Assembly: GCA_021298215.1 (NCBI GenBank)
Contig: JAJTEE010000007.1
Location: forward strand, 20,590 to 84,589
Length of the DNA stretch: 64,000 nt
Reading direction: 5' to 3'
DNA from: Alphaproteobacteria bacterium
GTDB lineage: Bacteria > Pseudomonadota > Alphaproteobacteria > Paracaedibacterales > CAITNM01
Shown here: positions 8,570 through 56,406 of the stretch, one piece after another
Layout of the letters: each line of letters begins with the position of its first letter
Numbering within the stretch: the stretch's first letter is position 1
Made by a program: the position numbers and the translations under genes
Notes under the pieces: model-generated
Told to the model about the DNA's origin: nothing
The model's input: the letters and a program-made list of their open reading frames with translations, nothing else
The model's database searches: none

Positions 8570-9607
8570 ATGTCCGTGACAGATTTAAGTTTACGATCCT
8601 TAGAAATTTTTCGTGAACTTGTTGATACCTATGTAGAAACGGGAGAACCAGTTGGCTCTAGAACGCTGTCACGCCGTATTAAAACACCTTTATCTCCAGC
8701 GACAATTCGTAATGTGATGGCTGATCTTGAAGAAGCTGGATTATTGTACGCGCCGCATACCTCTGCAGGGAGACTTCCTACAGCTGAAGGGTTAAAGCTT
8801 TTTGTACATGGGCTATTAGAAGTTGGGGATATTTCTGAGAGCGATCGTTTAGAAATTGAGAATCACTGCACGTCAAAGGGCAAAAGTGTTGAAGACATAT
8901 TAGAGCAAGCCACGGGTATGTTGTCGGGTTTATCAAAGTGCGCCGGGCTTGTGATGGCGCCAAAATCGCAATCAGCGATTCGTCATATTGAATTTGTGCA
9001 TTTAGGGCATCAGCGAGCATTAGCCGTGCTTATAAGCCAAGATGGAGTTGTTGAAAATAGGCTGATCGATTTGCCGGAAGGCATTACGATTTCGATGCTT
9101 ACGCAGGCCTCTAATTATATTAACAGCAATTTTTATGGAGCGACGCTGCAAGAAGTTTTACAGCGCATTCATTCGCAAATGGATAAAAACAAGCACGAAC
9201 TTGATCTTCTAACACAGAAGGTAATTGAAGCAGGTGTTGGAGTATGGAGCGGCGATAAGGAAACCGGATCGCTTATCATCAAGGGTCAGAGCAACTTATT
9301 ACAGAATGTCCAAGAAATTGCAGATTTAGAAAAAATTCGTGGACTGTTTGATGTGATGGACACCCAAGAAAGCTTGCATAAACTTTTGAATGCCTCGATT
9401 CAGGCTGATGGAGTGCAAATTTTTATAGGTTCTGAAAATAATTTATTTTCATTATCAGGTTGCTCCATGGTAGTATCTCCATACGAAAATGCTCAACGCC
9501 AAGTAGTTGGAGCTATTGGCGTAGTTGGGCCAGCAAATATGAACTACGGAAAAATTATTCCGCTAGTGGATTACACAGCAAAGTTGGTAACTAGGTTATT
9601 AAGTTAG
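8570..9607 (+). CDS. hrcA: Heat-inducible transcription repressor HrcA
   Basis: HrcA represses chaperone genes by binding the CIRCE inverted repeat and needs GroEL for activity. The 345-residue protein shows the N-terminal winged helix with the conserved ETGEPVGSRTLS, SPATIRNVMADLEEAGLL and PHTSAGRLPT, followed by the GAF-like domain and dimerisation insert. It heads hrcA-grpE, 12 nt apart. Its likely operator in this window is the CIRCE at 43944-43970 before groES; I see no CIRCE upstream of hrcA itself. Confidence 0.96.
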   Translation: MSVTDLSLRSLEIFRELVDTYVETGEPVGSRTLSRRIKTPLSPATIRNVMADLEEAGLLYAPHTSAGRLPTAEGLKLFVHGLLEVGDISESDRLEIENHCTSKGKSVEDILEQATGMLSGLSKCAGLVMAPKSQSAIRHIEFVHLGHQRALAVLISQDGVVENRLIDLPEGITISMLTQASNYINSNFYGATLQEVLQRIHSQMDKNKHELDLLTQKVIEAGVGVWSGDKETGSLIIKGQSNLLQNVQEIADLEKIRGLFDVMDTQESLHKLLNASIQADGVQIFIGSENNLFSLSGCSMVVSPYENAQRQVVGAIGVVGPANMNYGKIIPLVDYTAKLVTRLLS

Positions 9608-9619
9608 TGGAAGGTAAAT

Positions 9620-10150
9620 ATGGATACACAGGACGTGACAGAGAGCACAGAAGAAAAAGTTGACGCAGCACCAGAAGGTGAAATTTCTGAAAGCGAACGC
9701 ACGATTTTGGAGCTAAAAGATCAACTTTTACGCGCTTTAGCCGAGACGGAAAACACAAGACGGCGTGGTCAAAAAGAAAAAGAAGATGCTTTAAAATTTG
9801 GTATTTCAAATATTGCTAAAGACATGGTGGGTGTTGCCGATAACCTGCGCCGCGCTATTGAAAATAAGTCAGAAAATGCCGCTGAGCTTGCTGAAGCTTT
9901 ATTTTCTGGTGTTGATCTTATATTAAAAGATTTAGAGAGCATTTTAGGACGTCATGGTATTGTGCGCATCGAAGCTTTCGGCCAGCAATTTGACCCGCAT
10001 TGGCATCAAGCTGTATTTGAGCAAGAAACACAAGAGCATGCCCCCGGCACCATTGTTCAAGTAATCCAAGATGGTTATAAAATTCATGATAGACTTTTGC
10101 GACCTGCAATGGTTGGTGTTGCTAAAGCTAAGCAACAAGGTGTTGCGTAA
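9620..10150 (+). CDS. grpE: GrpE nucleotide exchange factor of DnaK
   Basis: GrpE releases ADP from DnaK. The 176-residue protein has an acidic N-terminus, a long coiled coil (LKDQLLRALAETENTRRRGQKEKEDA) and the C-terminal beta domain (FDPHWHQAVFEQE...GTIVQVIQDGYKIHDRLLRPAMVGVAK). GGAAGG-like sequence precedes the ATG. It is cotranscribed with hrcA; dnaK is not in the window. Confidence 0.96.
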   Translation: MDTQDVTESTEEKVDAAPEGEISESERTILELKDQLLRALAETENTRRRGQKEKEDALKFGISNIAKDMVGVADNLRRAIENKSENAAELAEALFSGVDLILKDLESILGRHGIVRIEAFGQQFDPHWHQAVFEQETQEHAPGTIVQVIQDGYKIHDRLLRPAMVGVAKAKQQGVA

Positions 10151-39601: not shown

Positions 39602-40006
39602 TTATCTTATCTCTTCGTAAAAATACTTAATAACTTCGGGAGTTAGATGACTTGCTCCTTGTTCCGATAAATATTCTGGACCATGCTCTTGAATATACCA
39701 AGCAAGCCCAGTGATATCGTCGTCGTGAGGATCTTGAATGTTAATTGTTTTGAGATAATCACGAATGGCATTAGCGGGATAACTAGTAATTCCACATTCA
39801 ACGCATTGAGGATAAGGACACCAGGGCATTTCTGGTTGAGGTTCACTGAAATATTTCCCATTACAGCAAGGCCACTGCCATTGATAAGAGCCTCTTTCGT
39901 TACTGTTTACATTAGAGGATTCGAGCCCAGGATCTTCATCAGAAGAGTTTATCGGGGATATCACTAAAAATACTAAAAACACACTTAAAATGAATTTATG
40001 TAACAT
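39602..40006 (-). CDS. Small secreted Cys-rich protein
   Basis: From ATG 40006 (GGAG seven nt upstream) the 134-residue product has a signal peptide (MLHKFILSVFLVFLVISPINS). An acidic segment follows, then a Cys/Trp/Pro-rich patch (WPCCNGKYF...PWCPYPQCVECG) and a helical C-terminus. Five Cys within about 30 residues could bind a metal or form disulfides. No family is recognised. It sits between the rpoD and rpsU terminators. Confidence 0.7.
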   Translation of the reverse strand: MLHKFILSVFLVFLVISPINSSDEDPGLESSNVNSNERGSYQWQWPCCNGKYFSEPQPEMPWCPYPQCVECGITSYPANAIRDYLKTINIQDPHDDDITGLAWYIQEHGPEYLSEQGASHLTPEVIKYFYEEIR

Positions 40007-40060
40007 TTTTTCTCCGATAGAAATTAGCACTAAACTTCATTATGATCCTTTATTTTGCAT

Positions 40061-40959: not shown

Positions 40960-41721
40960 TTACTGCTCCTCAGTATTTTTCTTTTTCACGTATGTTAGTC
41001 CTTGCACGTTTAAATCTAAGCACCTTTTTTGCCAAGTTAGAGAGCGAGGCTCTAAAGATTCGGGGACTTGAATATTTGCTTCGGCGCTCTTTACCAGAAA
41101 CAAAATACCATTACCTTTTAACATCGCGCCCAACTCTGTTATTGGTCTTTCAGCACGTAGATTACAACTCATAACAATGTGGGAATTTGAAGGCGCTTGC
41201 GTAGGAACTACAACGTTAAAATATTTAGGGTACGCGGCATTTACAATGTCTGCTAGCAGTTGTAGTGATTCATGATGTTGAGGTCTTTCTTCAAATAGTT
41301 CTAATTTTATTGGAGTAGAGAAACTCCAATCTTTATTAGTGTACGTATTTCCTAAAGCCAAGATAAGTGGAATAGCCGACAGACCATTCTCGCAATCGAT
41401 ATAAGTGAGAGAAATAGGTATGTTTTCAATCTTTTCTCTCTTCCATTTTTTCTTGCCAGAAAGAAGTTTATTTAGTGTCTTTGTCCATGGTTTATAAAAC
41501 TCTTGCAGCGCAAGCGGCCGAAGAGCTTGGCATAATTCCTGAACAGTTGTGGCGACTGGGCGTTGGAAGACGCATGCAATATCTGAATCTATACATCCCA
41601 TATATTGCACATATTTCTTTCTTAATTCTTCTGAAGCATATTCTTCAGCTTTGGCATAAGCGCTATTTTCTATTTGTATAAAAATCAACAGAAGCAGAAG
41701 CATTAGCAAATATTTTCTCAT
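40960..41721 (-). CDS. Secreted protein with methyltransferase-like pattern
   Basis: The 253-residue product has a signal peptide (MRKYLLMLLLLLIFIQIENSAYA). After a Cys-containing N-terminus comes YIDCENGLSAIPLILALG, LELFEERPQHHESLQLLADIV, HIVMSCNLRA and LKGNGILFLVK. The order and spacing resemble the Rossmann strands of a SAM-dependent methyltransferase, with a broken glycine loop (E-N-G-L-S). If so it is probably inactive or divergent. No exact family is recognised. Confidence 0.55.
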   Translation of the reverse strand: MRKYLLMLLLLLIFIQIENSAYAKAEEYASEELRKKYVQYMGCIDSDIACVFQRPVATTVQELCQALRPLALQEFYKPWTKTLNKLLSGKKKWKREKIENIPISLTYIDCENGLSAIPLILALGNTYTNKDWSFSTPIKLELFEERPQHHESLQLLADIVNAAYPKYFNVVVPTQAPSNSHIVMSCNLRAERPITELGAMLKGNGILFLVKSAEANIQVPESLEPRSLTWQKRCLDLNVQGLTYVKKKNTEEQ

Positions 41722-41904: not shown

Positions 41905-43569
<1,665 letters not shown>

Positions 43570-43597: not shown

Positions 43598-43894
43598 TTA
43601 AGCAGCTTTGTCGATGATACCCATGATGTCAGCTTCTTTCATCACTAGGTAATCTTGACCATCGATTTTAATTTCGGTGCCAGACCACTTGCCAAACAAC
43701 ACTCTATCACCTTTTTTCACGTCCAGCGCAACAACAGCACCTTGCTCATTGCGCGCTCCGGAACCAACGGCAACAACTTCACCTTCCATTGGCTTTTCTT
43801 TTGCTGTGTCTGGAATAATAATTCCACCAGGGGTTTTTTCTTCTAATTCAATGCGTTTGATCATTACACGATCATGCAAAGGGCGAAATTTCAT
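43598..43894 (-). CDS. groES: Co-chaperonin GroES
   Basis: The 98-residue protein has [14 protein letters not shown], the mobile loop [18 protein letters not shown] and [18 protein letters not shown]. It is first in groES-groEL, directly downstream of the promoter/CIRCE region. Confidence 0.98.
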
Positions 43895-43943: not shown

Positions 43944-43997
43944 TTAGCACTCAATCTTTATGAGTGCTAATTAAGCTAAAAAAACTTAATATGTCAA
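43944..43997 (-). promoter_or_regulatory. groESL promoter with CIRCE operator for HrcA
   Basis: TTGACA (43997-43992) and TTAATT (43974-43969) are 17 bp apart on the reverse strand. A perfect CIRCE, TTAGCACTC-N9-GAGTGCTAA, occupies 43944-43970 and overlaps the -10 edge and start site. HrcA bound here would block initiation; hrcA is at 8570-9607. Confidence 0.95.
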
Positions 43998-44114
43998 GAG
44001 ATATCTTTGTTTTAGACATCTATAAAATTTACGAAACAAACGAGAATTTATTAATACATTATTGACAAAGGGACTGATACTCTTATTCTAGAAATAGGTT
44101 TATGAAATAAAATA

Positions 44115-45026
44115 ATGAAAATTCCAACATTTTTAATTTTTTCTCTTTTTTCTATTTTTATTTTTCCAGTGTCTGTTTTTTCAACAACCAGTTGGACATC
44201 TGCGGAAGATGAAATATTAAGAGTTGCTGTTGCTATACAAGGCGCGAAAAAGTGGTCAACAATTGCTGAGCGATTACCCGCTAAAATTGGTAAGCAATGC
44301 AGAGAAAGGTATATGAACCACCTTGACCCAACAGTTGATAAATCAGATTTTACAGAAGCAGAAAGAGAGTTGTTATGTAAGATGATAGATCAACATACAA
44401 GCACGAAAGAAGACGGAAAAAAAGAGATTGCCTGGGCGGAAATAGCTAAATCTTTTAGACAATATGACCCGACAACTGGGACTATTGTTAAACGAAGAAC
44501 TGATCTTTTCCTCAAAAATCATCGCAATTCGTCAATACATAAAGCAGAGAGAAAAAACAGGACCTGGACTGATTCAAGAAAGAAAAAAAGAGATTCTTCA
44601 AGCATTCAGACAGATGAAAGCATTACAGACAATGTCCCTTCATCCTTCCTCCCCCTTTTACCAAGTGTTTTTCCTTTAGTAGCATCAACAGACACACGAA
44701 ACACAGGAACTGAAGACGATCAGCAAAAGATAAAGAGAGCAAAGATAGAAATCTTAACACAAGAAGACATAACATCTACAGAAGCAGATGAAGAAAAAAA
44801 TACAGGTGAAGGCGTAGATATCCTTCATGGACATACACTCTCTTTAGCAAATTACCCTGCTGACGCCCATGATGATCAGTCATATGATTCATTTGGAGAA
44901 GAGCTCAGAGGTCTACTCCTACCAAAATCAGAAAGCACAAATTCGCTATATGGCCTAACACCGATAGAGGATAGGCCTCCAGAATTCCCTAATTTTACTG
45001 AAGAAAATTACGCAGAAGACATGTAG
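44115..45026 (+). CDS. Secreted two-repeat Myb (R2R3-like) domain protein with NLS-like stretch
   Basis: The 303-residue protein has a signal peptide (residues 1-24, ending PVSVFS). The first Myb repeat spans about 26-73: W27, G-A-K-K-W47-S-T-I-A, LPAKIGKQCRERYMNHLDP. The second spans about 77-140: F79, AW107AEIAKSF, and KRRTDLFLKNHRNSSI, parallel to the plant/protist R3 pattern GRTDNAIKNHWNS. Residues 143-160 (KAERK then RKKKR) look like a bipartite nuclear localisation signal. The rest is Ser/Thr-rich and acidic. Tandem Myb repeats are eukaryotic transcription-factor domains. Export plus NLS suggests a nuclear effector taken from a host. Motifs are seen directly; the role is inferred. It is divergent from groESL. 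Confidence 0.88.
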   Translation: MKIPTFLIFSLFSIFIFPVSVFSTTSWTSAEDEILRVAVAIQGAKKWSTIAERLPAKIGKQCRERYMNHLDPTVDKSDFTEAERELLCKMIDQHTSTKEDGKKEIAWAEIAKSFRQYDPTTGTIVKRRTDLFLKNHRNSSIHKAERKNRTWTDSRKKKRDSSSIQTDESITDNVPSSFLPLLPSVFPLVASTDTRNTGTEDDQQKIKRAKIEILTQEDITSTEADEEKNTGEGVDILHGHTLSLANYPADAHDDQSYDSFGEELRGLLLPKSESTNSLYGLTPIEDRPPEFPNFTEENYAEDM

Positions 45027-45087: not shown

Positions 45088-46266
45088 ATGTATTACATCC
45101 CTTTAAAGATGCTCATGGGTGATAAAGGAAAATACTTAGGAATTATCTTAGGTGTTTCTTTTGCTGCCTTAATTATGACACAACAACCAGGCGTGTTTTT
45201 GGGCATCATGTCTCGTGCTTATAGCTTTGTTTCCGATATAAGCCTACCAGATATTTGGGTAATGGATCCGCATGTAAAGTATATTGATGATGTAAAGCCC
45301 TTACCCAGCACAAAGCTTTATCAAGTCGCCAGCACAAAGGGGGTAGAATGGGCGGTGCCTTTGTACAAAGGAAGCATTCAAGCGCGGTTACAAAATGGTG
45401 TTTTTCAAACGTGCAACCTTATCGGCATTGATGATGCCACGCTTATTGGTGGCCCAGCCAAAATGCTTGAGGGAAAACTTGAAGATTTACGCCAAAGCAA
45501 TAGCGTAATTGTGAGCATTGAGGGCGCTAAAGGTAAACTTGCTGCTCCACCAAAACAAAAAGGCGATGCCCCTACTCCTCTTAAAATTGGAGATACTCTA
45601 GAGATTAATGATCATTACTGCGTTGTAAGAGGTATTGCCGAAACAACGGCGACTTTTCAATCCATGCCTGTCATTTACACGACATACAGCCGCGCTACAG
45701 GATTCACCCCGCCCCAACGCAACTTGCTGAGTTTTATCTTGGTAAAGGCTGCACCTAACATAGACCCGCACGCCCTGACAAAAGTAATTAACGAAAAAAC
45801 CGGCCTTGCTGCCTATACAAAAGCTGCCTATACAAAAGAAGAGTTCAAAGATCTCACGCTCAATTATTATCTGAAATTTACTGGCATGCCGATTAATTTT
45901 GGGCTTTCAGTCTTGCTTGGTTTCTTTGTGGGCGCCGCGATTGCAGGACAAACATTTTATAATTTTACCCAGGAAAATTTACGTTATTTCGGCGTTTTAA
46001 AAGCTATGGGAACAAGCCAAAAAACGTTAATGCGCATGATTTTACTGCAAGCTTTTACGGTTGGAATTATTGGTTATGGTCTTGGCGCTTGCCTAACCTA
46101 TTTATTTTATGCATTTTCGACCTCTCATGCCTTATTAGCTTTTAAGTTTCCTTGGCAATTGATGATTTTCAGTATTATTGGAATCTCTGCTATTTGCGCA
46201 TTTGCGGCCTTCTTAAGTATCTATCGTGTCTTCAGACTAGAAGCAGCCATTGTTTTTAAGGGATAA
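45088..46266 (+). CDS. ABC transporter permease of the MacB/DevC (FtsX-like) type
   Basis: The 392-residue protein has one N-terminal membrane helix and a large periplasmic domain (residues about 45-265). Three C-terminal helices form the FtsX-type unit (FFVGAAIAGQTFYNFTQENLRYFGVLKAMGTSQKTLMRMILLQ). The ELLRYGVLKALGAS-like motif is typical of DevC/MacB permeases. The partner ATPase directly downstream is truncated, so the transporter is probably not functional unless served by another ATPase. Confidence 0.85.
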   Translation: MYYIPLKMLMGDKGKYLGIILGVSFAALIMTQQPGVFLGIMSRAYSFVSDISLPDIWVMDPHVKYIDDVKPLPSTKLYQVASTKGVEWAVPLYKGSIQARLQNGVFQTCNLIGIDDATLIGGPAKMLEGKLEDLRQSNSVIVSIEGAKGKLAAPPKQKGDAPTPLKIGDTLEINDHYCVVRGIAETTATFQSMPVIYTTYSRATGFTPPQRNLLSFILVKAAPNIDPHALTKVINEKTGLAAYTKAAYTKEEFKDLTLNYYLKFTGMPINFGLSVLLGFFVGAAIAGQTFYNFTQENLRYFGVLKAMGTSQKTLMRMILLQAFTVGIIGYGLGACLTYLFYAFSTSHALLAFKFPWQLMIFSIIGISAICAFAAFLSIYRVFRLEAAIVFKG

Positions 46267-47693: not shown

Positions 47694-49274
47694 TTATGTC
47701 TGATACAGAATATAAGGGAAGGAAGAGCTCATTAAAGATAAATTTTCTCCTGCGGGATTGTACCCAAAAATGAGAACATTATCTCCGTTTAATACGGTAA
47801 ACTTATCCAAGACAAAATAAACATCACCCCAGGATCTAGATAAAAATAGCACACCATCCTGCTCAAACCATTTCTTCCAATTTCCAAATGTACTGCTTAT
47901 CTCTGATATCCCAAAAGCATGCTGAGCATGGCAAGAAGTTAATCGTATTACCCCTAAATGCTTCTTATCTTGCAGAAAACCAAAAACTCCGCTTCTATCC
48001 AATAGACTGTCAATTTTTTCTTTTGATAACTGCTGAATAACCTGAACACTGGCATCAGAAAATCTTTGCACTAGTTTTTTCTGGAGGAGAGAATCTATAT
48101 CAGAAACAACGGTCTTCCAGCGAGGTATAGATGCTGAATAACTTAAACGTGGTAATATCGAAACCCCATTAAACTGCTGCCTTTTTGCAATTTCTCTAAT
48201 TTGAAATATGAAATGTTCTAGCACTCTATCAGGGTGTAAAAATTGCTCAGCAAATAATCTTCCATTTTCAGCAATTTCTTCAGCTTTTTCAGGATTATCT
48301 CTTGCCCAATTTATTTGAGTTAATAAGTCTGATAGATCAGGCGCAACTGGAATATAATGAACAAATGGTTTTAAAACCGACTCAAAATACATCTCATATG
48401 CGCTGGGATTAAAGCATAAATTCCCTAATAACATTCCCTCTGTTAATCTGCCCCCAAGTATCCAACTTCCTGCCCAACCATCTAAGCATAAATGGTATGC
48501 ATACTTTGTTTGATTCTCGATGCTTACAAACGTTCCTGTCGCTATTGTTGATAGAAAACCAAAATACGAGTTTTGCGCTGCAGGCAAATTTACATATTTA
48601 CAGTCTAATAACTCCGGATACATGCAAGAAAGCAGGCAAGCTCTGAACCTTTGCTGCTTTAACGCATCAAAGCCCGAAGGATGAGTGTGGCTTACGCGAG
48701 AAAAGGCTATTTTTGCTTTTTGCTTAAAAGTGAACCCCTTATCTTCCCAAACTTTTCGGGCTCTTTTGCATTCTTCAAATCTACTTCTATATGCTTCCAA
48801 ATCATCAAAAAAGCATGGATGGGTCAATATGATATTCTTAGTGTTATCGCCCTTTCTTTTATTTGCTGTAAATACTATGCTTTGTACTGGAGGGCCCACA
48901 ACATCTGTTGCTGCCAAATGAAAACTTATGTTGGGAAGAGAAGTAGATCTTCCTATTATCTCTAACCCTCTAATAAATTTATTTCCCCAGCTATACCCAT
49001 GATCTCCAGGAAACCAGCTGTTCTCTCCACTGCTTGGGCATAAAAATTTTCCATTTGCTCGATTATCTATAAAATCAACTTTGGCCCACCTATACCTTAC
49101 TTCTTCTTGAATGTTAAAGGAGTCAGGAGAAATTGCATCAAGTTGAGCAATAAATTGGTTGCGCATTACTTCATCTGCATCAATTTCTGGGGTAGCTGCT
49201 GCACGTACAACTGAAAATAGCGAAATTAAAAAAATTATATACTTTGAGTAAATTACTCTGAATTGCAAAAACAT
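47694..49274 (-). CDS. Secreted GT90/CAP10-type glycosyltransferase-like protein
   Basis: The 526-residue protein starts with a signal peptide (about 1-26). Residues about 180-360 match the CAP10/protein O-glucosyltransferase (GT90) domain: an Arg/Lys-rich KIAFSRV segment, KYAYHLCLDGWAGSW (257-271), then LKPFVHYIPV (301-310), PDLSDL (312-317) and EKAEEIAENGRLFAEQ (329-344). GT90 enzymes glycosylate EGF repeats in animals and capsule or LPS in fungi and bacteria. A further domain of about 150 residues at the C-terminus is unknown. It lies between frr and a degenerate pyrH end. Export makes a host-protein or surface-glycan target plausible; which one is not known. Confidence 0.8.
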   Translation of the reverse strand: MFLQFRVIYSKYIIFLISLFSVVRAAATPEIDADEVMRNQFIAQLDAISPDSFNIQEEVRYRWAKVDFIDNRANGKFLCPSSGENSWFPGDHGYSWGNKFIRGLEIIGRSTSLPNISFHLAATDVVGPPVQSIVFTANKRKGDNTKNIILTHPCFFDDLEAYRSRFEECKRARKVWEDKGFTFKQKAKIAFSRVSHTHPSGFDALKQQRFRACLLSCMYPELLDCKYVNLPAAQNSYFGFLSTIATGTFVSIENQTKYAYHLCLDGWAGSWILGGRLTEGMLLGNLCFNPSAYEMYFESVLKPFVHYIPVAPDLSDLLTQINWARDNPEKAEEIAENGRLFAEQFLHPDRVLEHFIFQIREIAKRQQFNGVSILPRLSYSASIPRWKTVVSDIDSLLQKKLVQRFSDASVQVIQQLSKEKIDSLLDRSGVFGFLQDKKHLGVIRLTSCHAQHAFGISEISSTFGNWKKWFEQDGVLFLSRSWGDVYFVLDKFTVLNGDNVLIFGYNPAGENLSLMSSSFPYILYQT

Positions 49275-49661: not shown

Positions 49662-51206
49662 ATGAAAAATATTATTTTGCGTTTCATATGCGCGCTCTCT
49701 CTTCTCTGCCCCATCGCGCAAAGCGCTGCGGTTGAAATAAACATCCTAAATGAGCTAGCACGAGATAGAGCACTAAGCATTATCCATAAATACAAAGTTT
49801 TTATGGAAGATTATTTTGATTTTAGCATGAAAGAATTAAGAAAAGGTAACGAAGATTATAATTATAATCAAACAGAAATAAATTTTCATATCAGAAGCTT
49901 AGAAAAAAAAGAAAATTTTATTAATAGCCTGCCCACAGACAATAAAAATTTTATAGACAAAATACTTAGAGATTTTTTTAGCAGCAGGTTTAGCATATTG
50001 GATTACCGGTACGACCTCTTTAAAAGAAGAGAACTAGTTGATGACAAATCAGAACGAATGTCGGAAAAAATAGCTTGCAATACGACGATGTGTCAGTTTT
50101 ATGACGAACTTATTTCAGAGACTTTTCATATTTACATGTCTTTAACCGATTCACATGTTGATATTTTAAGGCTAGTCAGCTTATCTCCAACTTTGTGGCC
50201 CTTGCTTAAAGGAGAAACCAGAGAATTACCTGATCCTGATCATGCTATATACAGCGATTCAACAAGAAGCAAGCTCAGGACTGATTTTGATCTTTATCTA
50301 TTTCTTACTTATGAGAAACCATGCGCAATGATAAGAATACCGATTTATGGTTTAGGTGTTCCAAATGACGAGAAAATGAAAGTAACAACCTCAGTGACAC
50401 AATATGAAAGAAGTCTATTTGATAAGAGATACTCATCATATAAAAAAGGAAAAGAAATACAGATCCCAGAATGGGTAACAACACAGCAATGCACTTTGTT
50501 AGAACAAGAGACCACAAGAAAAGTATCTCATGAAGATGAAAAAGCAATAAGTCCCAGATTTTCAACAGTTATTTTAACTGAAAAAGCAGTTACAGAAGAA
50601 ATTTCAGAAAAAAGTGATGTAATTGGAGCCGCCGCTGAAGAAGATATCTTTTTAGGAAATTTAGAGAATGACTATGCTGCAGGAGCTACGCATGAAGAAA
50701 CCCCCGTTGCTATTTGTGACATTTTTCAAGAGGAGGGATTTGACCTACAAGGGAGCATACCTTCTCCTGTTGGGCAGGCCGAAGTTGCACCAAAGATTTT
50801 AAAAACATTAAAAACCAACCCCTATGAGAAGCCATTACCAAGAGGATTAAGAGTTTTTCATCCTCATGAACAAAGTTTTCGTACGAATTTTAAAAGATTA
50901 AGCAGTAAACATCAGTCAACACTTGAGAAGATAAGGGAAGGAAAAGCAGAGAGCGTATCATATGCTGATTTTTCTTCACTATGGAAAGCTATTAACGGAG
51001 AGACTAGCATTGAAGAATCATCCGGTAGCTCACACAAAGTTTTACATGACGCTTCTGGAAAAAAAGTCACTGGTATCTTTGCCCATAACAAAGGCATGAC
51101 ATACACGAGAAAAACAATTCCTTATTTGCACGCAGCTATTCAAATGCTGGGGGATAAAAGACTCACGGAAGAGACAATATTTTCTCATGATAGAGTCCCT
51201 AGCTAA
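49662..51206 (+). CDS. Secreted protein with HicA-like C-terminal module
   Basis: The 514-residue product has a signal peptide (MKNIILRFICALSLLCPIAQS), a helical N-terminal half and a Glu-rich middle. The C-terminal globular part is about 405-505. The latter contains S-S-G-S-S-H-K (about 453-459), D-A-S-G-K-K-V, F-A-H-N-K-G and a closing helix. This is the order seen in the small RNase-like HicA fold (GSH, then a strand pair, then PxH, then a helix). A similar end occurs in the frameshifted gene at 11569-12733. Its last 8 nt overlap the convergent pyrH. The family assignment is tentative. Confidence 0.65.
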   Translation: MKNIILRFICALSLLCPIAQSAAVEINILNELARDRALSIIHKYKVFMEDYFDFSMKELRKGNEDYNYNQTEINFHIRSLEKKENFINSLPTDNKNFIDKILRDFFSSRFSILDYRYDLFKRRELVDDKSERMSEKIACNTTMCQFYDELISETFHIYMSLTDSHVDILRLVSLSPTLWPLLKGETRELPDPDHAIYSDSTRSKLRTDFDLYLFLTYEKPCAMIRIPIYGLGVPNDEKMKVTTSVTQYERSLFDKRYSSYKKGKEIQIPEWVTTQQCTLLEQETTRKVSHEDEKAISPRFSTVILTEKAVTEEISEKSDVIGAAAEEDIFLGNLENDYAAGATHEETPVAICDIFQEEGFDLQGSIPSPVGQAEVAPKILKTLKTNPYEKPLPRGLRVFHPHEQSFRTNFKRLSSKHQSTLEKIREGKAESVSYADFSSLWKAINGETSIEESSGSSHKVLHDASGKKVTGIFAHNKGMTYTRKTIPYLHAAIQMLGDKRLTEETIFSHDRVPS

Positions 51207-53926: not shown

Positions 53927-55585
53927 ATGAAAAAAATTTATAATTTATTTTTACTTACGTTCATTGCAATAAGATTTATTGAAGGAACAGATGCTGGTGT
54001 AAGTGGTTTTTCACCAACATTACCACCTTCTTCTCTCTCAGCCGAAAATACAGATCTACCCTACCGCCTTATATCTGGTGCAAGTAGTGCCTCTCTACTT
54101 CTACCTGCTGAAACAATAGAAAACTCTTATCTAGAACAAATAGAGGCAATAGCAGAAGGTCGTCGTGCTTACAACGAATCACTATTGGAATTTATAGAGA
54201 ATGAAGAGTTTCTGATTCAGCATCGCATCGGGCATTGTTCACAGTTGATAGGCATGGATTTAAGCTTCTCTGATCACCCAAGCATGCACCTACAAACTTT
54301 TATTAAAAGCATCAGAAACGATTTAGATGTTTATAAATTCCTAATAAAAGGCATACATGAAATAGAAGCTAATGATAATTACAATTCAAGACAAAAAAGA
54401 TTAATCATTTTATTCGGCATTATGAGTTGCAAGGAAGAAATTGAAAAACAAACTCAAAAAGAACTAGCCTATAAAAATAATGATTGCTATGAGCAATTCT
54501 ATTTTACAGAGATAAAAGAGCTTTTAAAAAAATCAACAATTATACCACCAGCTTATATATCCTTCTCCAAGAGATTACGACTTGACCTTCGAGACGGAGA
54601 GGTAAAACTTGGTATAGAGCTCCCATCAGACTCAAATTGCAAATTAACTTTGGCAGATCTTGCTAAAAAAATAAAAATATTCGAAAAATATAGAAAAAAT
54701 CGAATTGCATATAACATAAATGAAGACGATTTAAATATCGATCAACTATTGCAAGGAATTGTCGCTACCCAACTTAGAATAATTAACGAAAGTAAAAATC
54801 TTCTCCTTTCAAAGAGCTCAGCAGTAACGTTAACCTTTGCACCTATTGAAAATAGCGTAGAGTTCATGGCCGAAATCCCTGAATTGTTTTATAATTTACA
54901 CTACTGCTATATAACAGCGTCATCAGTTTTTAAAGAAGCGCAAACGATTTATCAGGATCTTATAGAAAAAGCAGAAGCTTTCAAGAAAAAGATAAACGAT
55001 GAAAAAGCAGCTGAAAGGATTAGACGTTATGAAAAATTTAAAGCTGAACAAAAGCATTTGGCTGAAGAAGCCAGAATAAGAGCAGAACAACGACGCATTG
55101 CCGATGAAGAACAACAAAAAATCGAGAGAGAACGAGTATACAGCCCAGAAAAAGAAGCCGCCACAGTAGCAGTTGAAGAATTGAAAGAAGAAGCAAGAAT
55201 TCAAATACCTGCCCATCAGAAAGTTAAAACCAAAGGTATAGCAAAAAAATTAGAACATACTCACGCAGCTGGCAGTACTGAAGCAGCGTCCAGTGCTGAT
55301 GAAACATCTTCTCTAATTATTCCTAAGCACATACAAGAATTTGTCCGTACAGTTATCGAGGCAGATTTTGGTACAATGGAGAATCTTTTTAAAGACGAAA
55401 TAGGAGCAACAGTTGAGTTAAGAGACAATAACAAACGCGTCATCAGCTTTCACTCCCCTGTAAATGGTAAACTGGTTAAATTTTATGTTGATACTCCTCA
55501 TGGCGCACAACTTGAAAAATTTAGAACCGCATGGAGAGAGCAAATGATAAAAGCACTTGTGCGAGCAGACATGAAGTTACGTTAG
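53927..55585 (+). CDS. Secreted coiled-coil protein of unknown function, bounded by direct repeats
   Basis: The 552-residue product has a signal peptide (MKKIYNLFLLTFIAIRFIEG). Mature residues are mainly helical, with a long Glu/Lys/Arg/Ala coiled coil at about 355-430. A C-terminal domain contains SFHSPVNGKLVKFYVDTPHG and a closing helix. That end has the strand order of the HicA-like modules seen elsewhere but lacks the G-S-H (it reads G-A-T). Perfect 32-bp repeats lie 112 nt before the ATG and immediately after the stop, suggesting recent insertion beside rpsB. Confidence 0.7.
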   Translation: MKKIYNLFLLTFIAIRFIEGTDAGVSGFSPTLPPSSLSAENTDLPYRLISGASSASLLLPAETIENSYLEQIEAIAEGRRAYNESLLEFIENEEFLIQHRIGHCSQLIGMDLSFSDHPSMHLQTFIKSIRNDLDVYKFLIKGIHEIEANDNYNSRQKRLIILFGIMSCKEEIEKQTQKELAYKNNDCYEQFYFTEIKELLKKSTIIPPAYISFSKRLRLDLRDGEVKLGIELPSDSNCKLTLADLAKKIKIFEKYRKNRIAYNINEDDLNIDQLLQGIVATQLRIINESKNLLLSKSSAVTLTFAPIENSVEFMAEIPELFYNLHYCYITASSVFKEAQTIYQDLIEKAEAFKKKINDEKAAERIRRYEKFKAEQKHLAEEARIRAEQRRIADEEQQKIERERVYSPEKEAATVAVEELKEEARIQIPAHQKVKTKGIAKKLEHTHAAGSTEAASSADETSSLIIPKHIQEFVRTVIEADFGTMENLFKDEIGATVELRDNNKRVISFHSPVNGKLVKFYVDTPHGAQLEKFRTAWREQMIKALVRADMKLR

Positions 55586-55644: not shown

Positions 55645-56406
55645 TTATATCTCTTCAGATTCTTCAATTTTACTCAACCAACTTCTAGAAACTTTTAATT
55701 TTATTTCTGCAGAATTAGCTTCTTCGACCTTTTTTGTGGCCTTTTTTCTTTGTTTAGCGTCTTTTATGACAGCCAAATTAAAACGTACTTCCATTATTGT
55801 TAATGCATCCTTTTCTGGAGCTTCAATTACAGCGCTAATGGCAGAGTGTAAAACTTCATCTTTCTTAATACGTGAAGATAATTTCATGAAAATCCAAGCT
55901 AAAGCTGTTCTTTTTTGTAAACGTTTTTCGTTTACTGCTTTGCTTGCGCGCCCCCTCACTAATTCATCTTCAATAGTAACAAGATAATTCCATGCACGAG
56001 CAGTTGCCAACCTATCACTTATTAAGCATTCTTTAAGAGCAGTAAATGCTTCGCGCTGCACAGCTTCATTGGAAATACGCCCTAAAAATTTCCATACTCG
56101 CGCTTCTTTAAATGCTCTTTTTTGATATATTTTCCCTGATTCATTTATATGGCATGTAGAGTTAACAGCTAAAACTGCATCTATTAAAATAGAAAGGCTC
56201 GAAATTTGCTGAAAACAGTTATAAATTTGAGGAGCTTTCTTTAATGAAGAAATAGCATCTATTGCCTCAACGGCTTTATCTTTTTCAAAAATTTCAGATA
56301 CTGAAATTTTTCTTTTTAAATCTTCCCAATCCGGCTCAGTAGGAAGTTCTGCTGCATAGAGGAATATTAAGGAAATTGCACAAATTAAAGAAAGAAGCCT
56401 TAGCAT
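55645..56406 (-). CDS. Secreted helical-repeat protein
   Basis: The 253-residue product has a signal peptide (MLRLLSLICAISLIFLYA). Residues from about 100 contain four to five units of about 33 residues with pattern A-R-x-W-x-x-L-x-x-I and then R-x-x-A-x-x-A-x-x-E. The units are helix-turn-helix, like TPR/PPR-type solenoids but not a clear match. It may bind protein. No exact family is recognised. Confidence 0.65.
   Translation of the reverse strand: MLRLLSLICAISLIFLYAAELPTEPDWEDLKRKISVSEIFEKDKAVEAIDAISSLKKAPQIYNCFQQISSLSILIDAVLAVNSTCHINESGKIYQKRAFKEARVWKFLGRISNEAVQREAFTALKECLISDRLATARAWNYLVTIEDELVRGRASKAVNEKRLQKRTALAWIFMKLSSRIKKDEVLHSAISAVIEAPEKDALTIMEVRFNLAVIKDAKQRKKATKKVEEANSAEIKLKVSRSWLSKIEESEEI

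Follow-up and report, generated by a model that had tools for sequence, protein, structure and literature searches.

Why would a bacterial chromosome carry a Myb domain of the eukaryotic type behind an export leader, and where would such a protein act? The question is raised by a gene at 44115..45026, on the plus strand of a 64,000-nucleotide stretch of an alphaproteobacterial genome (the window; the whole genome is 1.53 Mb in 36 contigs). From its ATG start the gene encodes 303 residues comprising an export leader, a two-repeat (R2R3) Myb domain, a basic stretch and an acidic tail. We propose that the product is an exported effector likely acting as an activator-type transcription factor in the nucleus of a protist host. 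We give this reading a probability of about 0.6; each of its steps (export, entry into the nucleus, binding to DNA and activation) is a prediction. It builds on a computed two-repeat Myb domain with a predicted fold and the main base-contact residues kept, on a bacterial location conserved in position across the genus, and on selection acting on the Myb domain.

Comparison of the protein with Pfam-A returned Myb families only. PF00249 matched a single stretch, residues 26-70 (1.8e-16, 60.4 bits with a cut-off of 24.4), and PF13921 matched two stretches (2.6e-15, 56.8 bits with a cut-off of 22.9); NCBIfam gave no family for the protein at 0.01. An earlier note, made from the DNA letters, had proposed tandem Myb repeats. 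The profile search bears this out, as does the best match among solved structures, the c-Myb R1R2R3 chain in complex with DNA (1h88_C), on whose R2R3 part residues 27-139 align (whole-sequence E 1.1e-19). Other c-Myb chains, B-Myb, plant WER and a Myb3 chain follow. Repeat R2 covers residues 26-72 (44190..44330, plus strand), with the recognition helix IGKQCRERYMNHLDP, and R3 covers residues 76-142 (44340..44540, plus strand), including about 20 inserted residues relative to c-Myb. The second repeat forms no separate PF00249 stretch, yet it aligns to c-Myb R3 and stands in blocks of the model with pLDDT 95-98. The R2R3 core is confidently predicted, and the predicted model lies at most 1.1 Å from DNA-bound c-Myb across 100 residues. 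Both the sequence match and the predicted model give two tandem repeats with the c-Myb R2R3 fold.

The base contacts of c-Myb are made by K128, K182 and N183, which are present here as K60 in R2 and as K134 and N135 in R3. Eight of the nine recognition-helix positions compared with c-Myb are kept, N179 being the one that is not. The spaced aromatics pointed out in the earlier note (W27, W47, Y66, F79 and W107) correspond to W95, W115, W134, W147 and W166 of c-Myb. Five of the six core aromatics, three per repeat, are thereby kept as W, Y or F; the sixth, W185, went unmentioned in that note and is replaced by R137.

These comparisons also bear on whether the target might be host RNA processing rather than promoters, as would be expected of a protein like the spliceosomal Myb CDC5/Cef1. 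The predicted fold is tied between c-Myb and CDC5/CEF1. In sequence the window protein is not closer to CDC5/Cef1 than to c-Myb: identity is 43% to c-Myb and 34% to CDC5/CEF1, and the best CEF1 chain is matched at 3.5e-10, far more weakly than c-Myb. We consider an action on RNA processing very unlikely.

The likeness to c-Myb and MYB3R thus consists of two tandem repeats, the predicted fold and the main DNA-contact residues. Unlike them, the window protein has an export leader, the longer R3, R for W185 and an uninterrupted bacterial frame, and it has no R1. Myb2/Myb3 of Trichomonas vaginalis, which are protist and not bacterial proteins, show 36% identity. A protein search listed 27 proteins, namely the window protein itself (5 sequences on 12 contigs, the longest of 330 kb) and 26 others, all of which have Myb Pfam domains and, where the name gives the organism, come from plants.

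Eukaryotic contamination of an assembly probably does account for one set of matches: in a 'Desulfosporosinus' metagenome-assembled genome (MAG; G435, locus L028), 8 of 10 matches have internal stops and all frames are of 114 residues or fewer. For the window gene, an unbroken 303-residue frame between bacterial genes that recurs on 12 contigs and has a neighbour-like base composition (GC 0.377, GC3 0.266), the chance of contamination is negligible, and the neighbourhood shared with sister genomes refutes it. Of the 11 genomes that represent the genus, seven had a PF00249 match, the window's own included (G000, G001, G002, G004, G005, G008 and G009); G003, G006, G007 and G010 gave no match, nor did any of 31 other genomes of the order. 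All seven Myb genes lie in one neighbourhood, near groESL or frr. In G000, G001, G002, G005 and G008, groESL stands beside the Myb gene and reads away from it, with a perfect CIRCE-type repeat by groES, and in G005 two receiver-like genes separate the two. The frr(-pyrH-tsf-rpsB) flank of this neighbourhood is present in G000, G002, G004, G008 and G009. G009 has other genes at the place expected for groESL, and G001 has a methyltransferase gene on the other side of Myb. Among the genomes without Myb, neither groESL nor Myb was found within the 2.5 kb read around frr in G007, and no CIRCE was found in the fetched stretch of G006, which was scanned for CIRCE only. The window frr protein had no match in the Myb-bearing G001 (rated 96% complete), in G003 (100%) or in G010. 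Pfam, structure match, predicted fold and neighbourhood all agree with the earlier claim that an R2R3 Myb of eukaryotic type is encoded by a bacterium. The Myb gene is a bacterial gene, inherited in the genus.

Could it nonetheless be a captured gene decaying without function? The G002 frame is interrupted by a stop, the gene is absent from 4 of 11 genomes, and drift is fast. Five aligned genus proteins have 23-32% overall identity to the window's. Against decay, dN/dS between G004 and G008 is 0.25 in the Myb domain, and the residues corresponding to K128, E132, N183 and S187 of c-Myb are unchanged in all six intact genus members. The invariant columns of the genus alignment include W27, W47, K60, Q61, C62, E64, R65, L70, D71, P72, W107, N135 and S139. 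The same pair of genomes gives dN/dS of 0.44 for the leader and 0.54 for the tail. Because the Myb domain stands at 0.25 compared to 0.026 for frr and 0.049 for pyrH, we conclude that the gene is selected, but fast-evolving. Decay without function is highly improbable.

The proposed effector would have to leave the bacterium. Residues 1-23 (44115..44183, plus strand) form a hydrophobic N-terminal leader, and the Sec signal peptide suggested in the earlier note is also predicted by a home-made rule, with a cut near S23/T24. Each of the six main Mybs that are intact in the genus begins with a leader-like stretch. Five of them pass the rule, and the sixth (L003) has a hydrophobic start without a basic residue. 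Among the Myb open reading frames (ORFs) collected from bacteria, 50 of the 71 closed at their 3′ side pass the rule compared to 48 of 195 neighbouring ORFs (Fisher 1.9e-11). The controls contain further proteins that are probably secreted as well as some repeats; here, and also in the basic-stretch and tail comparisons below, some control ORFs come from overlapping loci and represent the same gene more than once. The 21 misses include fragments, leaders without a basic residue and three ORFs without any leader (L016, L022 and L031).

This enrichment speaks against a DNA-binding regulator or nucleoid protein that stays inside the bacterium, its leader being a membrane anchor or a chance feature. 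Such a role would fit a domain that can find DNA without a host, the intergenic stretch common to the Myb gene, groESL and the CIRCE element, and the PF00249 match in Bacillus subtilis, by which Myb-like domains occur in free-living bacteria too. The contact residues, however, are those used at eukaryotic Myb sites. In addition, a class-wide sample of 385 Alphaproteobacteria gave seven genomes that match the family profile, all of 0.8-1.5 Mb, the size of host-bound bacteria. Three of these seven belong to the genus; a match as restricted as 7 of 385 is not due to chance. We regard an intracellular role as improbable.

Is the window gene a lone oddity? A scan of a genome collection with the single window protein found no relative; a scan with the alignment found 15 loci, and the collected set holds 74 distinct ORFs with a Myb match. 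Within the order to which G370 belongs (family code f31), the profile matches 7 of 9 genomes, with 22 matches in G424 and 17 in G370, and MAGs of the Puniceicoccales have 19 (G429), 3 (G430) and 4 (G431); these are counts of matches and not of genes, as one gene can match twice. The Myb contigs of G429 and G430 also carry bacterial genes (e.g. DnaX-type and Mur-ligase), and the tested flank in G431 had no Pfam match. A match in G053, a 62-residue frame under the cut-off, was dropped. Several Myb sets exist in bacteria, and the window gene is not a lone oddity.

The forms taken by these relatives are varied. One 11.8-kb Puniceicoccales contig (L023:1-11844) is an array of Myb genes, most with leaders, and some of the proteins have two R2R3 pairs. 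In G248, a leader-bearing frame of 967 residues has seven weak Myb-like repeats (L042:1-2901). Two Myb genes of family f31 lie at the 3′ side of a cpn60 (groEL-type) gene (L026:167-3461), by chance or through shared history. On a contig of 'Endozoicomonas cretensis' (L022:2896-3741), a leaderless Myb frame stands beside a DUF819 gene, and its partner in the tree described below is an unnamed protein, P0021 (86/95). The leaderless gene of the Rickettsiales (L031) neighbours one for CTP synthase, so it could be genuinely bacterial and of a different kind.

Next, we considered how the protein could reach host DNA. The leader would take it to the periplasm by Sec export, and passage of the outer membrane might use the genome's own type VI secretion system, a pilus-type secretin or vesicles. 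The KKKR stretch would then serve nuclear import in the host, probably a protist, where both recognition helices would read an AAC-type Myb site, with K60 in R2 and K134/N135 in R3. The acidic-aromatic tail would recruit the host transcription machinery, making the protein an activator that competes with host Mybs of the 3R type; 3R Mybs time the cell cycle in plants and animals. The outer membrane and the nucleus are the weakest steps of this mechanism, and they weigh against the proposal as a whole.

For the outer membrane, the window's own genome has a type VI sheath gene with a VipA-VipB fusion and a gp25-type gene nearby. The fusion is a single frame of 658 residues (L050:8377-10353, minus strand). 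The same genome gave no match to a type IV secretion system of the VirB4 type. Its one secretin matches MshL best, below the curated cut-off, and its one PilB/GspE-like ATPase lies on a different contig; a full type II system is accordingly not supported. In a goat-caecum MAG (L027:3-4827), vgrG, a MORN protein, a DUF4280 protein, which we take to be a PAAR-like spike tip, and a HIT protein stand in a row that ends with a Myb gene. This row, in a lineage other than the window's, is the only genomic link between Myb and a secretion system that we noticed. Tentatively, several protist-associated bacterial lineages may hold sets of export-tagged R2R3 Mybs with activation tails, fired into the host to run its Myb programme, in at least one lineage by a VgrG-DUF4280 type VI module. 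In the text available of a 2025 review, a type VI system, probably a non-standard one, is judged the most plausible means of secretion in these bacteria, and the hosts of Finniella are given as cercozoans and Euplotes ciliates, with a cytoplasmic location (PMC11909080).

For the nucleus, the basic cluster that the earlier note placed at residues 143-160 (44541..44594, plus strand) does hold KKKR, a possible nuclear localisation signal. The motif K[KR]x[KR] near the Myb end occurs in 11 of 67 Myb ORFs compared to 49 of 955 control windows (p 0.0011), a small enrichment, and we take the stretch as only a hint of nuclear import.

The acidic tail described in the note is borne out by sequence composition: residues 244-303 (44844..45023, plus strand) are acidic with aromatic and leucine residues, a possible activation domain. 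A first test of such tails (44 of 67) counted residues of the Myb domain as well and was hence repeated on the residues after the last Myb match. Among tails of at least 40 residues, 36 of 49 are acidic-aromatic with leucine compared to 21 of 191 controls (1.7e-17), or to 6 of 44 leader-bearing controls (5.9e-9), by a rule fixed after the tails had been seen. The repeated test left out 18 short tails. Before both counts L022, L031 and ORFs under 150 residues were dropped, and the controls were cleared of copies of one weak Myb-like gene. Shuffled tails nearly match this score (27.5 on average and 35 at most, compared to 36 observed), and the likeness of the tails is mostly one of composition.

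This last result favours an exported Myb domain that occupies host Myb sites and blocks host Mybs, the tail being a disordered spacer. Fast tail evolution points the same way, as do the Puniceicoccales and f31 members that end soon after R3 (18 of 67 Myb ORFs have fewer than 40 residues behind the last Myb match; e.g. L023_2747-3775). The excess of acidic-aromatic composition among the longer tails argues against a mere spacer, as does the first, uncorrected test, in which 8 of the 9 rows from the window's genus scored as acidic-aromatic (these rows include the near copies L005, L007 and L008, the last a fragment). A pure competitor is unlikely in our view, and we prefer the activator.

Where did the domain come from? 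A gene capture had been proposed in the earlier note, and we built a tree of 72 rows on 99 usable columns, which resolves little; the 30 rows labelled eukaryotic include proteins without an organism name, so the label is partly assumed. The window's row and four of the other five genus rows form a clade (100/97) within the part holding rows labelled eukaryotic. This clade joins no named group by a starred branch, and the donor, which we tried to name, is beyond what so few columns resolve. L004, a positional counterpart, lies apart on a long branch, although a single clade of all six is not rejected (p-AU 0.519). The f31 and Puniceicoccales rows fall mostly elsewhere in the tree. Neither a single nor multiple capture is shown, because a single clade holding every bacterial row survives the test (p-AU 0.331) though the groups fall apart in the tree; other constraints gave 0.074 (Finn+f31) and 0.060 (Puniceicoccales). 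The genus ancestor likely took the Myb domain from a eukaryote and would have retained it at a single chromosomal position, with rapid change in the remainder of the protein.

To our knowledge, few bacterial proteins act as host transcription factors, and these have DNA-binding folds of their own. TAL effectors, delivered by type III secretion, and HsvG/HsvB use folds other than Myb. Bacterial Myb-like regulators of the RsfA kind have a single repeat, and on that description the two repeats of the window protein set it apart. If our reading is true, symbionts can borrow the host's own regulators: a host-type domain would have become an exported bacterial protein, retained in a single neighbourhood across the genus and amplified in other lineages to some 20 matches per genome. 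Its targets can be predicted from the known Myb recognition code and tested. As far as the available text of a nucleomodulin review goes, TAL effectors and HsvG/HsvB are bacterial proteins acting as host transcription factors, a likely functional likeness of the window protein, with plant hosts and without a host-type Myb, and the sole mention of Myb is in the title of a reference about XopD and MYB30 (PMC7819608). That symbionts carry Myb-like genes is already a published idea: in the accessible text on endosymbiotic Clostridia of termite protists, Myb-like transcription factors are among the eukaryote-like genes, at least 20 of 42 of which have predicted signal peptides (PMC10579323). Those Clostridia belong to another phylum, and the main text available names Myb once, without domain analysis, synteny, tails or delivery. 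Apart from that mention, our search of literature other than subscription papers and preprints turned up no description of R2R3 Mybs exported by bacteria. What is new, as far as searched, is the positionally conserved genus family, the anatomy of DNA contacts and tail, the occurrence of Myb sets in several lineages, and the vgrG row.

Finally, we describe the surroundings of the gene. On its 5′ side lie genes which, from their sequences, we take to be groES (43598..43894) and groEL (41905..43557), both divergent on the minus strand. Between groES and the Myb gene is a perfect inverted repeat of the CIRCE type (43944..43970, plus strand; 0 expected), matching what we presume to be the CIRCE consensus. 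Promoter-like hexamers, TTGACA-16-TATTCT (10/12), lie 5′ of the Myb gene (44062..44089, plus strand) and are weak, with 4 such sites found in the stretch compared to 3.8 expected. Downstream is a permease of the FtsX/MacB type (45088..46266, plus strand), which adjoins the Myb gene in G005 as well.

Other genes with possible export leaders are found nearby and elsewhere. Near the Myb gene, the window encodes a glycosyltransferase family 90 protein with a hydrophobic start (47694-49274, minus strand, 4.7e-17). Five window ORFs have leader-like starts by eye and no Pfam match (39602-40030, 40960-41721, 49662-51206, 53927-55585 and 55645-56406); counterparts of the one of 514 residues stand next to frr at three further loci of the genus. 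Related leader-bearing proteins are encoded at L018:8636-9217 and 9338-9928 (plus strand) and at L021:9710-10441, and in G005 two of them separate groESL from the Myb gene. L018:9338-9928, the member that was tested, has a weak receiver-domain match of 0.0031, under the cut-off, and is a possible exported receiver domain. A second leader-bearing gene of the window's own genome, on contig C6 (L002:1447-2055, minus strand), has a single C-terminal Myb repeat (PF00249 2.9e-7) and adjoins the gene of a leader-bearing ankyrin protein.
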